This document shows positions 1-5,757 of a stretch of 28,666 nucleotides of DNA, piece by piece. The DNA lies in the IMG/VR virus record IMGVR_UViG_3300010354_000444, positions 1 through 28,666 of that record. The stretch is one strand, 5' to 3'. The notes under the pieces are model-generated. The model was not told the origin of the DNA. It worked only from the letters and a program-made list of their open reading frames with translations, and did no database searches. Position numbers and translations under genes: made by a program. The DNA comes from a virus. Within the stretch, counting starts at the first letter, position 1, and the number at the start of each line of letters is the position of its first letter.

Positions 1-449
1 CCCCATTTCTTACCATTTCTACTATCCTTTCTATTCTTATTCACCTCCTCCTCCCAATACCACTTCTCACATACCAACGGTCTCATCCACAAACCATCAA
101 CATATCCCCACACACCAATCTCCTTCAATTTCTTCACCGTTACACCTCTTCCACTACTTCCTCTTACAGTTACACAAACTATCGTATAACCCCTTCTCTT
201 TAACTCTTTAACCACTTCTACTCCTATTACTAACTTCTTAGCATGTATAGTCTTTTCATTCCATACATCCCAGAAGTCTTTACCAAAACCAACAATACCT
301 TGAAAATCCTTATCCCCCTCTTTATCAACATTAGTCTTAAAAACTAATGTTCCGTCTATATCAACCAATATTAAACCTTTCTCATCCCCCATCCTTCTAA
401 TTAAATCTTCCACTAATATCATTACACTAAACTTCATCATATTCTTCAT
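1..449 (-). CDS. HAD-superfamily phosphatase, polynucleotide 3'-phosphatase-like (3' end outside window)
   Basis: An open minus-strand frame runs off the left edge (149 codons visible). It carries HAD motif I, LVDIDGTL, at residues 28-35 with nucleophile D30 and general acid D32, and a motif II-like strand IVCVTVRGSSG with T94. A following DGLWMRP stretch (118-124) and a Lys-rich end resemble the phosphatase domain of T4-type polynucleotide kinase, which removes 3'-phosphates from nicked ends. I chose the ATG at 449 because AAAGGA lies 5 nt upstream (455-460); an in-frame ATG at 476 has no such site. The coding strand is almost free of cytosine: I count about 15 G on the plus strand in 1-480, against about 24 C in the first 60 bases alone. 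The protein is correspondingly poor in Pro, Ala, His and Gln. Family assignment is fair; substrate is inferred. Confidence 0.6.
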   Translation of the reverse strand, partial: MKNMMKFSVMILVEDLIRRMGDEKGLILVDIDGTLVFKTNVDKEGDKDFQGIVGFGKDFWDVWNEKTIHAKKLVIGVEVVKELKRRGYTIVCVTVRGSSGRGVTVKKLKEIGVWGYVDGLWMRPLVCEKWYWEEEVNKNRKDSRNGKKW

Positions 450-591
450 TACTATCCTTTCCGTTACAAACCCCATACCCCGGTGGGCACGTTTAAGGTT
501 TGCAACAAATCCAATACTAATTATCTCCCCCCTATATTTTTTTCTGTATTTTTACCCTATTAGAACTTATATAAACATATATACATATATG

Positions 592-605
592 GTGACGGCC
601 GCCAC
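592..605. repeat. GC-rich near-palindrome, possible operator
   Basis: GTGACGGCCGCCAC reads as a palindrome around the centre CGGCCG with a single mismatched pair. It is a GC island inside a very AT-rich stretch (541-625) between the divergent HAD and zinc-ribbon genes and just upstream of the rightward promoter. A protein-binding site is plausible by position; nothing else shows its role. Confidence 0.3.
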
Positions 606-627
606 AAGAAAAAATCTGTAAAACTAC

Positions 628-657
628 TTGCAATCTCAAATACACAGTGCTTATACT
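628..657 (+). promoter_or_regulatory. sigma70-like promoter for the 715 gene
   Basis: TTGCAA at 628-633 and TATACT at 652-657 are separated by 18 bp. Transcription would begin near 664, about 50 nt before the ATG at 715. The TTG at 628 that opens a longer reading frame is therefore more likely part of the -35 box than a start codon. Confidence 0.5.
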
Positions 658-714
658 TCTCTATCTACACACCAAGTGAGTGACAATAATGCTCACACAA
701 ACAAAGGAAAACAA

Positions 715-936
715 ATGAGTGAATACATGGAATGTCCAACATGTGGAGAAGAATTCCAGGTTGCAGATGAACTGTTAGGGACAGCTATGAGATGCCCTAT
801 CTGCTTTCAGGGTATTAATCCGTTTGGAGGTATTTTGAACACTAAAAGTTATTATGATGATGATGACAGATATGAGTCTAGTTATACTCGTGAAGTCTAT
901 GATGAACTAGGGTATGAGCAAGGGTATGATTACTAA
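715..936 (+). CDS. Small zinc-ribbon protein, function unknown
   Basis: A 73-aa protein with two Cys pairs, CPTC and CPIC, about 20 residues apart near the N terminus. This is a classic zinc-ribbon knuckle arrangement, followed by a Gly/Phe segment and a very acidic, Tyr-rich tail (DDDDRYESSY and later YEQGYDY). I start it at the ATG at 715, which has AAAGGA about 7 nt upstream. The frame is open back to a TTG at 628, but that codon overlaps a promoter -35 box. The gene stands alone between its own promoter and a strong terminator, so it is probably monocistronic. Such ribbons bind nucleic acid or RNA polymerase in other phages, but no specific role can be read here. Confidence 0.7.
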   Translation: MSEYMECPTCGEEFQVADELLGTAMRCPICFQGINPFGGILNTKSYYDDDDRYESSYTREVYDELGYEQGYDY

Positions 937-961
937 AATTTGTTCTTAATCATAACAAAAC

Positions 962-1003
962 AAAAGACGCTTCTGTGCATATCCACGGAAGCGTCTTTTT
1001 TTA
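962..1003. terminator. Bidirectional rho-independent terminator
   Basis: AAAAGACGCTTC (962-973) pairs perfectly with GAAGCGTCTTTT (988-999). The stem continues inward through a T-G wobble and GTG/CAC to a six-base loop. A T-run follows on the plus strand (996-1002), and on the minus strand the stem is followed by TTTTGTTTTG. It sits between the convergent ends of the 715 gene and the 453-aa gene and can stop both. Confidence 0.9.
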
Positions 1004-1024
1004 TTGTTTGTACGGCGAAATCAA

Positions 1025-2386
1025 CTATTGTAGTTGGCGTTCTCCTCTACCTTTATTATACAGGTAGGCTGCGCCGGCAGCGCCGGCTACAACACCAGCA
1101 GATAAAACATTAGCGTTTAACATTCCTTCAGCTGTTCTTAGAGAAGTTACTTTTTTTCTGATAATTTCCATAGGTCTTTCAACAACTTTTGGTGTGACAG
1201 CAGAAGGCTTTGGAGTTTCACTGGCTATTTCAGCAACAAGAGGTGTTTCAGCTTTTTTGAAGAATTGTAGATCATCTGATGACATTGGTTGTCTACGTAA
1301 AGATAACCTAGATTTTTTTTCTGCCTCAAAGGTTTGTTTTTCTAAATTTTTTTGGCGAAGTTTTTCGGCAGTTGCTTGTTGTCTTAAAAGTTTTTGCTCT
1401 GCTCGCTGCTCTGCTATTTTCCTTTCAGAATCGCTAATTCTCAACGCCTGCCCATAAGATAATCTGTCAAAATCTTCAATATCTATACCAAGTCTATCCA
1501 TTAAACGAATTGCGTTTCCTCCACCAGTGTTGACATACTTTGTTTGACGTATTAACTGTTCTATTTGAGATTGAGACATATTTTCTTCAAGTATAGAAAC
1601 TAAATCATCAGCCAACGGCATGCCTCTGGACATCCGTGATCTAGCAAGGTCTAAGGCGCTCATATAATCAGGAACAAATTGTCCACCAGTATACGTTCTG
1701 TTGATTGTTTCAACAAATCTTCCTGCTTTTACCCTACGGCGACCACTTTTATCTACAAATGTTCTAAGCTCATCCTCAATCGGATTAGCAAGTGACTTTT
1801 GATTCAAAGGATCATGTATAATTGATGCAGTTTGTTCATCATTAACAAAAACTGTAAATCCAGCTGCAACTCTTCTGTCCATTGACCCCATCTTTTTACC
1901 TCGTCTACCAGTCATTATTGGGTGAGGGCCTGCAGGTTTCCTGGTTGCCGGATTAACATATATTGGTTTAATTTCTACAGTTCGTTTTCCAGTTTTGATA
2001 GAAGAATTATTTTGTGAACGAAGTTTATTAGCCTTATTTTTTTTAACCTTGTTTTTTTTAGCTTTTATTCGCGCTGGTTTGATAGGTTCTGATTTTGATA
2101 CAAAGTTATCAATGGGCACAGTAGAAATAGGCGCAGTAGAAACAGGTGTTACTGGTTTAGGAAGATTGTCAATATCAAAAGAATCCTTACCTATTATTTC
2201 TTTTAAGGTTGACTTGATGTCTGCCTCAGTAGCATCTTCCTTCAACCGTACTTTAGCCTTCATTTCCGGGGGAGACCAAGTAACTCCACCTTTTTTACTA
2301 ATACTTTTTTGCCAACCCTTGTTAAGGGCTTGTTCTTCTGAATCAAATGTGTGAGTTACTCCAAAAAATTTAATTTGAAAAGACAT
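1025..2386 (-). CDS. 453-aa basic coiled-coil protein with C-terminal membrane segment, unknown function
   Basis: No family is recognised. The N-terminal 80 residues look folded. Residues about 100-135 are a Lys/Asn-rich basic linker, and residues about 318-370 are rich in Lys, Glu, Gln and Arg and probably form a long helix or coiled coil. The C terminus (about 424-445) is a small-residue hydrophobic segment, NVLSAGVVAGAAGAAYLY, followed by a basic tail. The motif RLGI-D-IEDFDRLSYGQALRI (298-317) resembles RLGMIDLSVLSYEQQVKM in the 1155-aa exonuclease protein, and both proteins end in a similar Gly/Ala membrane segment. GGAG lies upstream of the ATG, and the previous stop is 3 nt away, so it is translated from the mRNA of the 96-aa gene. 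A structural or ejected virion protein is an inference. Confidence 0.7.
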   Translation of the reverse strand: MSFQIKFFGVTHTFDSEEQALNKGWQKSISKKGGVTWSPPEMKAKVRLKEDATEADIKSTLKEIIGKDSFDIDNLPKPVTPVSTAPISTVPIDNFVSKSEPIKPARIKAKKNKVKKNKANKLRSQNNSSIKTGKRTVEIKPIYVNPATRKPAGPHPIMTGRRGKKMGSMDRRVAAGFTVFVNDEQTASIIHDPLNQKSLANPIEDELRTFVDKSGRRRVKAGRFVETINRTYTGGQFVPDYMSALDLARSRMSRGMPLADDLVSILEENMSQSQIEQLIRQTKYVNTGGGNAIRLMDRLGIDIEDFDRLSYGQALRISDSERKIAEQRAEQKLLRQQATAEKLRQKNLEKQTFEAEKKSRLSLRRQPMSSDDLQFFKKAETPLVAEIASETPKPSAVTPKVVERPMEIIRKKVTSLRTAEGMLNANVLSAGVVAGAAGAAYLYNKGRGERQLQ

Positions 2387-2785: not shown

Positions 2786-2956
2786 CTAATCGTTATCCAC
2801 TTCTTCTTCCCACACGTCACCACAATCTCTGCAGGTAACATTAAATCTTAGACAGTGTGATTCTTCTTCAGAATCAGATTTGATTACTGGGAGCTGTTTA
2901 ACAATAAAATTTGGTGGATAACTACAGTCCGGACAAATAATTGGATTAAATGTCAT
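2786..2956 (-). CDS. 56-aa zinc-ribbon protein
   Basis: A short frame coding 56 residues. CPDC (residues 8-11) and CRDC (42-45) form a two-knuckle zinc ribbon with a 30-residue spacer, and the C terminus is acidic (EEEVDND). Its ATG overlaps the recA stop in an ATGA junction (2953-2956), which implies translational coupling with recA. The conserved Cys pairs and the coupling make this a real gene. It may modulate RecA or another DNA transaction, but no partner can be read from the sequence. Confidence 0.75.
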   Translation of the reverse strand: MTFNPIICPDCSYPPNFIVKQLPVIKSDSEEESHCLRFNVTCRDCGDVWEEEVDND

Positions 2957-3945
2957 TTGCTTGAGATTTCTTTTATTTCGTTTACAATATCAAGATTTTC
3001 ACGCAACTTTTCTATTGCGTTATCTCGTCCTTGAGCAAAAGATTCACCATTATAATAAACCCATGCACCTTTTTGACTAAAAACTCCATGATCAATACCT
3101 AAATCAAAAATACAGCCAAATTGGTCTATGCCTTTTGAATAATAAATATCAAACTCAGCAATTTTCATTGGTGGAGCAACTTTATTTTTAATAATCTTAG
3201 CTTTAACTTTAACACCTATAGGATTGCCAGCTTTGTCTTTAAGTTCTTCTTTTTTGCGAACATCAATTCTAACTGACGCAGTATATTTTAATGCTAAGCC
3301 ACCAGGAGTTGTTTCTGGATTACCAAACATAACACCTATTTTAGATCTCAACTGATTAATAAAAATAATGAGTGTTTTATGCTGAGAAGCTAAACCAGTC
3401 AATTTTCTCATAGCTTTAGCCATCATACGAGCTTGCAATCCCATTTGAGCCTGTTCCATTTCACCATCTAATTCTGCTTTAGGAATTAGTGCTGCAACAG
3501 AATCAACAACTACAACACCAAGCTCACCCGTTCTAACTAAACGATCAACAATTTCAATAGCTTGCTCGCCATAATCTGGTTGAGCCAACAATAGATTATC
3601 TAAGTCAATTCCTAAATCATGCATATAGCTAGGATCAAGAGCGTGTTCAGCATCAATATAGGCACACTTTAGCCCTGCTCTCTGCGCTTCAGCAACAACA
3701 GTTAAAGCTATTGTAGATTTTCCAGATGATTCTGGACCGTATATCTCAACAATACGACCACGAGGAAGTCCGCCTATACCGAGGATAGCATCTAATGTTA
3801 GAGCACCAGTTGATATTGATGGCCACTTCTGAACATTTTTGGAGCCTAATCTCATTACTGTCCCAGAACCAAATTGTCTGTCCAGTTGAGCTAATGCAAG
3901 TTCTAATGCTTTTGATTCAGAACCAGCTGATTGTTCTTCTGACAT
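2953..3945 (-). CDS. recA: RecA recombinase, phage-encoded
   Basis: A 330-aa RecA that forms ATP-dependent filaments on single-stranded DNA for strand exchange and repair. Visible features are Walker A GPESSGKS (70-77), the catalytic glutamate in DAEHALDP (E100), Walker B VVVVDS (144-149), the loop 1 region MGLQARMM, FINQLR, and the loop 2 region GNPETTPGG. It lacks the long acidic C-terminal tail of Escherichia coli RecA (about 352 aa). The open frame extends 49 codons further upstream, but that part is hydrophobic, not RecA-like, and covers a promoter. The ATG at 3945 with GAAGGGA upstream is the likely start. The gene is followed by an overlapping zinc-ribbon gene and is probably expressed early from the promoter at 3989-4017. 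Confidence 0.95.
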   Translation of the reverse strand: MSEEQSAGSESKALELALAQLDRQFGSGTVMRLGSKNVQKWPSISTGALTLDAILGIGGLPRGRIVEIYGPESSGKSTIALTVVAEAQRAGLKCAYIDAEHALDPSYMHDLGIDLDNLLLAQPDYGEQAIEIVDRLVRTGELGVVVVDSVAALIPKAELDGEMEQAQMGLQARMMAKAMRKLTGLASQHKTLIIFINQLRSKIGVMFGNPETTPGGLALKYTASVRIDVRKKEELKDKAGNPIGVKVKAKIIKNKVAPPMKIAEFDIYYSKGIDQFGCIFDLGIDHGVFSQKGAWVYYNGESFAQGRDNAIEKLRENLDIVNEIKEISSK

Positions 3946-3947
3946 CT

Positions 3948-3976
3948 TTGAATAAATCCCTTCAAAATGGTATAAT
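3948..3976 (+). promoter_or_regulatory. Rightward sigma70-like promoter
   Basis: TTGAAT (3948-3953), a 17-bp spacer and a perfect TATAAT (3971-3976). Transcription would start near 3983, giving a leader of about 27 nt to the 52-aa gene at 4010. It faces the leftward recA promoter and the two start points nearly coincide. Confidence 0.6.
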
Positions 3977-3988
3977 CTTGTACCAACA

Positions 3989-4017
3989 ATTATACAGCAT
4001 AGGAGCATTATGCGCAA
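3989..4017 (-). promoter_or_regulatory. Leftward recA promoter
   Basis: On the minus strand TTGCGC (4017-4012), a 17-bp spacer and a perfect TATAAT (3994-3989). The start near 3982 leaves a leader of about 37 nt before the recA ATG at 3945. The -35 box is weak. The element overlaps the ribosome binding site and start codon of the opposite 52-aa gene. Confidence 0.55.
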
Positions 4018-4168
4018 AAAAATACAACTCACAAACGAATACAGTATAGCAATATATCTATTAAAAAACCGTTTCAACACAGTTGATGACATTTTGAGAT
4101 ATTGGAGTATTTGTGGACCGTGCCAAGAACCACATCCTTCAATAGAAGATTATAATAGTTCAAATTGA
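4010..4168 (+). CDS. 52-aa small protein, unknown
   Basis: A short frame beginning at an ATG 4 nt after AGGAG (4001-4005) and 27 nt after the predicted start of a consensus promoter. The protein has a basic, helix-prone N-terminal half (residues 1-32) and a Cys pair in WSICGPCQEP (CGPC, 35-38), then an acidic polar tail. It overlaps the recA leader in antisense. Promoter, ribosome binding site and frame fit together, so I call it a gene despite its size. A small early regulator or host-takeover peptide would fit the position, but the function is unknown. Confidence 0.5.
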   Translation: MRKKIQLTNEYSIAIYLLKNRFNTVDDILRYWSICGPCQEPHPSIEDYNSSN

Positions 4169-4341: not shown

Positions 4342-5757
4342 ATGCAGATATATCAGATATTTGTCAGCGAATTGCATGCAAATGTAAAATTCAAAGTGTT
4401 AACTGTTGAAGAAGCTAACGAATTCAACGAAAAGATTAAAAACGCTAAAGATCGTAAAAAACGTGTTCTTCAGCATGTTGTATTTAATTTAAATACTGAT
4501 GTTGCCGGTTCATTAGCAATGATGACAAGAACCGCAGCGGAACGAACATTAGATGCAATATACGCTGGATGTATTATGTTAAATCCATCTCTAGATTTAG
4601 AATATTGGTTAACAATAGCTTTTATGACAGCGCCTATTGAAAACGATGGAGATTTGTCTCAAGCAAGTATTGCAGAGATAAAAAGAATGCTTGAAAAAGC
4701 AAAACGAGCACAACCAGTTAGTAAGCAGTCAAAGACAAAGAAAATAACTAAACAAAAGTTTCTTGGTTTAGATTTTTATTTAAAGTCTAATGTGATTGGT
4801 CAAGATGAGGCTATAGATGAAATAGTTTCTGCTTTAGCAAGATCTCAAGCTGATATGCATGATCCTAATAGGCCATTAGGAAGTTTTTTATTTGCAGGAA
4901 GTTCAGGTGTTGGAAAAACCCATTTAGCACAATGCCTGCACAAATATCTTTTTGATGAAGATACCCCTATGATTAGAATTGATTGTGGTGAATTTCAGCA
5001 TAAACACGAGAATCAAAAACTGCTTGGATCACCTCCAGGATATGTTGGCCATGATGATGGTGGTCAATTAACTAATCAAGTTAAAAAAAATCCATATTCT
5101 GTTGTTTTAATTGATGAAGTTGAAAAAGCTCATCCAGATATTTGGAATACTTTTTTGCGTATTTTTGATGAAGGTTGCGTAACAGATTCAAAAGGTGATG
5201 TTGTTAGTTTTAAAAATACAATAATTATTATGACAACAAACTTGGGAAATGAAAAAACTGTTGAAAATTTGATTTCAACTGGAACTGGTTTCACTAACCG
5301 TGTTGATTTTGATAGAAAAACTTCACAAATTCCAATAAGATCACTAGTTGAAAAAAATACGCATCAAGCTATAGATAAATACTTTAGACCTGAGTTCATT
5401 AATAGAATTGATAAAATTATAGTTTTCAATCATTTAAGTCGTAATGATTGCGAAAAAATAGCTGAACTTGAAATGTCTCTAGTTGCAGAAAAACTATCAA
5501 GAAAAGGTTTAATTATTGAATATACAGATAAAGTTATTGATGGCTTAATACAAAAAGGTATTGATACTGTTAAGGGTGCACGTGGAATATCTCAAGTTAG
5601 AAGAGATACTATAGAAACTTCTTTGGCTAAAGTTATGGTAAAAAGCCATATTCCTAGAGGCACTATTTTTCATATAGATTTTTTTGATGATAATTTTGTT
5701 TTTAATATTAAAAAGCCAATTAAAAAAATAGCAACATCAACAAATAATGAGGCTTAA
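4342..5757 (+). CDS. AAA+ ClpA/ClpB-type unfoldase with phage-specific N-terminal domain
   Basis: A 471-aa protein. Residues about 150-460 form one AAA+ module of the second-domain ClpA/ClpB type. Walker A is GSSGVGKT (186-193), the pore loop is GYVG (233-236) within LGSPPGYVGHDDGGQL, Walker B is VVLIDE (254-259), TTNLG supplies sensor 1, FRPEFINRID is characteristic of the family, and GAR with R414 is sensor 2. The family threads proteins through a hexameric pore using ATP. The N domain, first AAA+ module and coiled middle domain of ClpB are missing. Instead residues 1-130 are a helical domain I do not recognise, perhaps a substrate adaptor. GGAG lies upstream of the ATG. As the first gene of the rightward block it may remodel virion or host proteins. 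Confidence 0.85.
   Translation: MQIYQIFVSELHANVKFKVLTVEEANEFNEKIKNAKDRKKRVLQHVVFNLNTDVAGSLAMMTRTAAERTLDAIYAGCIMLNPSLDLEYWLTIAFMTAPIENDGDLSQASIAEIKRMLEKAKRAQPVSKQSKTKKITKQKFLGLDFYLKSNVIGQDEAIDEIVSALARSQADMHDPNRPLGSFLFAGSSGVGKTHLAQCLHKYLFDEDTPMIRIDCGEFQHKHENQKLLGSPPGYVGHDDGGQLTNQVKKNPYSVVLIDEVEKAHPDIWNTFLRIFDEGCVTDSKGDVVSFKNTIIIMTTNLGNEKTVENLISTGTGFTNRVDFDRKTSQIPIRSLVEKNTHQAIDKYFRPEFINRIDKIIVFNHLSRNDCEKIAELEMSLVAEKLSRKGLIIEYTDKVIDGLIQKGIDTVKGARGISQVRRDTIETSLAKVMVKSHIPRGTIFHIDFFDDNFVFNIKKPIKKIATSTNNEA

Follow-up and report, generated by a model that had tools for sequence, protein, structure and literature searches.

Phages of one freshwater group carry a pair of genes in a leftward operon, one for a HAD-fold phosphatase and one MazG-like, and the reading we prefer, at somewhat less than even chances, is that selection against cytosine in their mRNA has purged the base from one or both of them in several lineages and has kept it out. 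The cytosine poverty itself is real, recurrent and maintained, and is not an assembly error. The enzymes are of known kinds and the cytosine-free message is the new part; in the literature searched (mostly open-access papers) we found no description of cytosine-free phage genes.

A left-end gene nearly devoid of cytosine

The stretch analysed here, which we call the window, is an entire IMG/VR virus record of 28,666 bases, a linear fragment from a freshwater phage. Its left end carries the following features.

1..462, minus strand: stretch with a C-poor coding strand (3%), which starts at the ribosome site and continues past the contig start
3..449, minus strand: C-poor gene for a predicted HAD-fold phosphatase (PNKP 3'-phosphatase / acid phosphatase B type), called from the ORF, PF03767 and phrog_415
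471..491, minus strand: conserved element CGTGCCCACCGGGGTATGGGG, which heads the leftward operon
694..936, plus strand: divergent small zinc-ribbon-like gene of normal C content, the upstream neighbour, with a similar gene at the same place in L140 and relatives in L087 and L088

A sequence-only reading of the window had put about 15 G on the plus strand between 1 and 480, and the exact counts (A 137, C 163, G 15, T 165) bear this out; on the minus strand, which is the coding one, C accounts for 15 bases (3.1%) and G for 163 (34%), against a mean of about 14-15% C for the genes of the window. Elsewhere in the window a sliding 480-base count of C or G reached minima of about 9%, and the composition of each gene agreed with the earlier statement that the neighbours lack the bias. 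From the ATG at 449 the HAD gene holds 14 C in 447 bases, where 69 would be expected at the window-gene mean (binomial 2.9e-17) and 32.4 ± 4.0 for the same protein under the codon usage of the window (z -4.6). The amino acid composition is altered, as had been noticed, and synonymous choice is affected as well.

The last C before the C-poor stretch lies opposite plus-strand position 463, just ahead of the AAAGGA site that serves the ATG at 449. The sharp onset near the start codon that had been described stands, but the C-rich 'upstream codons' set against it (CGT GCC CAC CGG) belong to the conserved 21-base element at 471-491, which lies at the same place in relatives, and are no evidence of a coding frame. 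The frame of the HAD gene is open with motif I (VDIDGTL) intact, as the same reading held. Mechanically the ORF extends to 476, and the AAAGGA site together with the alignment of relatives makes the ATG at 449 the likely start. The gene is truncated by the contig start, which leaves its 3' end and last HAD motif outside the window; the orthologue in L140 is complete. Further to the right, where two convergent genes meet, 964-1002 reads as a strong hairpin with a run of T behind it (GACGCTTC...GAAGCGTC), likely to be an intrinsic terminator.

The terminase of the window phage is encoded by 286 IMG/VR stretches, of which the best 80 were kept, and the relatives are about 200 kb in size. Among isolate phages it had 12 matches, all below 60% identity. 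RecA and a Clp-type AAA ATPase are encoded at 2953-4092 and 4342-5757, adjoining head and packaging genes, and the ATPase is close to phrog_4871, ATP-dependent protease. An ORF of 1155 aa at 8267-11734 had no PHROG match and contains 'ILTIDVESTGV' and 'HNANFDVNEL', which we take to resemble DEDDh exonuclease motifs.

Two predicted enzymes

From its sequence, the HAD gene is predicted to encode a phosphatase like the T4-type polynucleotide 3'-phosphatase. The protein from the window matched Pfam PF03767 (1e-8) and phrog_415, 'polynucleotide kinase' (2.1e-12), the L157 protein matched PF25109 HAD_PNKP (2.1e-12), and a profile of 11 relatives had 5uj0 (E 4.9e-8), 4xrp (1.3e-7) and 1ltq (2.8e-7) as its top solved structures. 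The residues V, D, D, G, T and L of the DxDGT motif are invariant in 11/11 relatives. An RNA ligase (PF09414) was found in 0/26 records; a search with PF09511 gave no match and neither did its control, which makes it uninformative.

In L089 a MazG-like gene of 117 codons precedes the HAD gene and has 2 C in 351 bases. The same gene in L157, with a 73% identical protein, has 2 C in 348 bases; the C expected for these two proteins is 28-31 (z -6.2 and -6.9). The metal-binding ExxE...ExxD motifs (E42, E45, E61, D64) are invariant in 10/10 MazG-like relatives. Of three proteins scanned against the Pfam MazG family, that of L089 scored 14.6 bits against a cut-off of 22 and those of L157 and L087 had no match, and we therefore call the family MazG-like only. 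A structure model of modest confidence gave four helices at a mean pLDDT of 65, with MazG as the best Foldseek hit (E 1.9), and in a second look at structural matches the best eight were MazG or HisE/HisIE (Z 4.3-5.1), MazG at the top.

Cytosine poverty recurs in related phages and stops at gene borders

A protein search found HAD relatives in four of 37 related records, three of the four on the same side of the recA and clp genes, and a profile search recovered an orthologue 58% identical to that of the window in L140, a 70-kb contig from a different metagenome. L140 has the zinc-ribbon gene pointing away, then CGTGCCCACCGGGGTATGGGG, then the HAD gene, which is the order of the window, and its HAD gene has 6.6% C. 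Searches of IMG/VR with the HAD protein alone and with the gene at 1025-2386 returned nothing useful, nor did searches of isolate phages with the window DNA, the HAD protein or the MazG-like protein; a pattern search for C-free genes behind the ribosome site of the clade returned only the L089 contig.

Whether relatives share the C-poor coding strand was a check that had been put forward for this stretch. Many do, to very different degrees: the 13 HAD genes range from 3.1% to 18.7% C (nine below 12%) and the ten MazG-like genes from 0.6% to 20.1% (four below 11%), with one more at 10.3%. Total G+C stays near the genome level in the C-poor genes, G replacing C. Because relatives with normal C exist (0.20 for the MazG-like gene of L142, 0.19 for the HAD gene of L145), C poverty is not needed for function. 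Low-C branches of the HAD tree hold the window with L140, L089 with L142, and L157/L158/L160/L216, and the normal-C pairs L146/L148 and L145/L087 fall among these low-C clades, some inner branches being weak. Among bacterial relatives (18 loci) C lies between 0.155 and 0.400, near that of the flanks, with the lowest in L231 (0.155 vs 0.205 in its flanks), and the isolate-phage relatives measured, three of 88 matched records, all have normal C.

The two genes also stand out when whole records are scanned. Coding-strand GC skew was ranked over 910 ORFs of at least 80 aa from 12 records, mostly picked for holding the genes (G022 for a C-free run), and ranks 1 to 10 (0.95 to 0.45) were all MazG-like or HAD genes, against a background mean of 0.08 (sd 0.13). 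Gene calls were longest non-overlapping ORFs, some of them spurious: the L089 MazG-like gene is missing from the set, displaced by a longer antisense frame, and the two most negative skews were spurious antisense frames of a MazG-like gene; the scan gave only G-rich, C-poor genes. Coverage was partial for G041 (200,000 of 202,043 bases), G047 (200,000 of 216,024), G011 and G050, and the pieces of G018 overlap slightly. In eight other records (509 ORFs) the top skew was 0.37, and the top ORFs listed include one MazG-like gene, at 0.32. The HAD and MazG-like genes of G048 are the two lowest in C of its 177 ORFs. When followed in 60-base steps, C drops at the gene start and recovers at the gene end, and C is at an ordinary level in the 120 bases that separate the two genes of L160.

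Two further observations concern neighbouring or similar sequences. A 72-codon ORF just ahead of the MazG-like gene of G047 (L205 11564-11779; C 0.097, G 0.329) is perhaps a third member of the module. Tracts of GTA/GTG-type repeats in L122 (5151-5455) and L133 (9528-9830) are C-poor on one strand, are unrelated to the two genes and look like low-complexity linkers.

The conserved element at the operon head

The element at the head of the operon has a longer form, TTTAACGTGCCCACCnGGGTATGGGG(TCT), at 471-496 on the minus strand of the window, and is often flanked by AGACC and GGTCT arms. CGTGCCCACCGGGGTATGGGG occurs exactly in L140 and L136 and with one or two mismatches in 11 further loci (the full set being L087, L088, L120, L132, L134, L136, L138, L139, L140, L141, L145, L157 and L158). 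Rfam gave nothing above noise in window 300-1100 and no family for the element, which may be a promoter, an operator or an RNA leader. A position effect of the element as the general cause of C poverty was rejected: normal C follows the element in most phages that have it, and no C-poor zone is seen in phages that lack the two genes. In G022 (L120 15684-15930) an unrelated, unnamed first gene behind the element is C-poor (9% C, skew 0.42; about 5% C at its start), and neither a HAD nor a MazG-like gene was found near it.

The cytosine-free state is maintained

Comparison of the L089 and L157 MazG-like genes shows 66 base differences, of which 39 are A-G, none is T-C and two involve any C. The C-free state has outlasted 27% protein divergence between two phages. 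Counted in cells, which are sequence pairs and not events, the two C-free genes carry T (0.41), A (0.32), G (0.24) or C (0.03) opposite C in six C-normal relatives, and opposite T they carry C in 0.00 of 894 cells, where a control between normal genes gives 0.12. This mixture of replacements argues against simple deamination. The three extreme genes have no CTN codon for Leu, no CGN for Arg and no TCN for Ser, and only 3/146 of their NNY codons end in C; third positions in L089 are A 0.31, G 0.32 and T 0.36. NNC and NNU codons are read by the same tRNAs, and a codon or tRNA preference accordingly leaves the NNC loss in the extreme genes unexplained. A repeated motif as the cause was also discarded, k-mer counts having shown no single motif.

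The milder members behave differently. In nine genes with 6-12% C, NNY codons end in C at a frequency of 0.24 (129/540) against 0.26 (26,575/103,552) in 569 background genes, third-position C is rare before G or C (17/236 before G vs 0.22 in the background), and G/(A+G) at codon ends is 0.62 against 0.265. Their skew arises from amino acids and from purine-ending and G-ending codons, and the synonymous null is weak for L160 (z -2.1 and -1.8). Milder members may therefore show G enrichment more than C avoidance; their ordinary use of NNC and bias towards codons that end in G mean that the pressure is uneven.

Proposed selection against cytosine in the message

Because the loss is confined to one strand, and because synonymous NNC codons have disappeared although they share their tRNAs with NNU, we infer that selection acts against C in the mRNA of the two genes. 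Selection on C had been among the proposals of the sequence-only reading and is the part of it that fits best, whereas the agents it named, a cytosine-directed modification or a deaminase, drew no support, and the replacements are unlike deamination.

A further, weaker step is that the two enzymes would work at a time when the infected cell has difficulty in making, or preserving, RNA that contains C. CTP might be in short supply or a C-type chain terminator might poison it, or RNA might be cleaved or damaged wherever it has C; transcripts lacking C would still be made or would survive, and both proteins would be produced in such a state. A pyrophosphohydrolase together with a phosphatase would be apt enzymes for removing a C nucleotide or for repairing the ends of cut nucleic acid. 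Cleavage or damage of RNA at C would fit because the borders follow the genes, ribosome site included, and scarce or poisoned CTP because of the likely chemistry of the two enzymes. Upstream genes in the same operon have normal C, which cleavage would explain more easily than CTP supply would, unless the C-free gene has a start of its own; a promoter-like site lies at the gene border in L157 and none in L089, and such sites are fewer than in shuffled sequences. The analysis identified no C-directed enzyme, drug or nuclease. In its most specific form, which we regard as rather unlikely, the pair would be a counter-defence or takeover module whose C-free messages are expressed precisely when the supply of cytosine for RNA is cut off or poisoned (by ddhCTP, for example) or RNA is cleaved at C, with the enzymes clearing the C nucleotide or healing ends and their own genes exempt from the condition that they would relieve.

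Alternative explanations

The composition might meet some other need of the message, such as little structure or freedom from Rho-dependent termination or pausing, an explanation that we consider unlikely. Rho binds C-rich, G-poor RNA, of which a C-poor, G-rich message is the opposite, and over all positions of the milder genes no dinucleotides are scarcer relative to background than TC and CC (0.38 and 0.31). In the same genes, however, third-position depletion is no stronger for NTC than for NAC or NGC, so that the TC effect may stem from amino acids; third positions thus give no support to the avoidance of Rho sites, and neighbours in the same transcript do without the composition. Similarly unlikely is that a G-rich, C-poor zone forms a stable RNA-DNA hybrid (R-loop) for replication or regulation, in which case the composition would serve the DNA strand. 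Skews of up to 0.95, runs of at least three G at 13.3 per kb (background genes, 5.3) and the third-position G enrichment of milder members would all suit such a hybrid, as would the fact that the C-poor gene is the first behind the element in the window, L140 and G022, in the last with an unrelated protein. Yet C poverty tracks two gene families and not a place, genomes that lack them have no zone, and in L089 and L157 the zone lies 1.2-1.5 kb past the element with normal genes between; the borders follow ORFs, and the total exclusion of even single Cs exceeds what hybrid stability needs.

Strand-specific mutation, either deamination of cytosine on an exposed coding strand or mutagenesis of C of the reverse-transcriptase type, is quite improbable. 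It would account for loss on one strand and for the T that the C-free genes have at most synonymous third positions where relatives have C (0.82 of 162 cells, though few alternatives exist there), but over all positions C has gone to T, A and G alike with much amino acid change, third positions of L089 are not dominated by T, G+C is not lowered and the borders follow genes. Moreover, a reverse transcriptase (PF00078) was found in 0/25 records, many of them fragments (the control was positive in three genomes), and a dCMP-deaminase domain, present in 12/25 records, is in neither G034 nor G045, both fragments. The proposal of recent transfer from an unusual replicon has been weakened, since the bacterial and isolate-phage relatives measured are not C-poor and the C-free state survives 27% divergence. 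Its fuller version, an imported pair whose bias is fading, with mild members as older imports, is more doubtful still: graded C (0.6% to 20%) within the same families and G that is high throughout agree with it, whereas the absence of T-C differences, where the return of C should have begun, and the failure to find a C-poor donor in the 18 bacterial loci and the three of 88 isolate-phage matches speak against it. A chimaera or other assembly fault where the contig ends, the last of the earlier suggestions, has a negligible probability. The stretch does touch the contig end and was found in no longer record, but synteny with L140, from another metagenome, led us to reject a chimaera at 480-600, and the nearly C-free genes of L089 and L157 are internal to contigs from other metagenomes.

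Protein genes are not expected to do without one base, which sacrifices almost every codon for Ala, Pro, Thr, Gln and His, and that two linked enzymes keep the loss despite protein divergence points to strong pressure on their messages. If C in RNA is indeed attacked or starved during infection, a host defence could be read from the composition of a gene, and genes with another forbidden base could reveal further host defences.

Comparison with known systems

The HAD protein resembles the phosphatase domain of T4-type and bacterial Pnkp in sequence (5uj0, 4xrp and 1ltq) and in keeping DxDGT. Canonical Pnkp has a fused 5'-kinase domain, whereas the gene here stands alone, with ORFs of its relatives starting a few residues ahead of the HAD domain; because the kinase domain is missing we file it as like the phosphatase domain and not as Pnkp. 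It also differs from its Pnkp relatives in its C-poor coding strand, the three isolate-phage relatives not being C-poor. The MazG-like protein shares ExxE...ExxD with MazG and the all-alpha NTP pyrophosphohydrolases, whose fold its four-helix model may resemble, and it is unlike known MazG in its extra conserved CxC and C-terminal Cys, its score below the Pfam cut-off and, in two phages, its cytosine-free gene. A cyanophage MazG prefers dGTP and dCTP (PMC6850273), which would be in keeping with scarce or poisoned CTP as the pressure.

Phages of the T4 type with hypermodified cytosine differ in their dCMP hydroxymethylase, whose fold (thymidylate synthase, PF00303) was found in 0/25 records here, with a positive control in 9/14. 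Purine loading is a mild, genome-wide tendency that likewise gives purine excess and G over C in the message; the present skew is limited to two gene families and reaches 0.95. Genes free of ACA have reportedly been engineered for use with the MazF toxin, and there, too, a message stripped of the target of an RNase survives, although here the case is natural, a single base and not a triplet is excluded, and no such RNase was identified. Prokaryotic viperins offer a possible parallel, a defence in which RNA synthesis is poisoned at C: ddhCTP, ddhGTP and ddhUTP terminate RNA chains in T7 infection (PMC12926258). A C-free message would escape ddhCTP.
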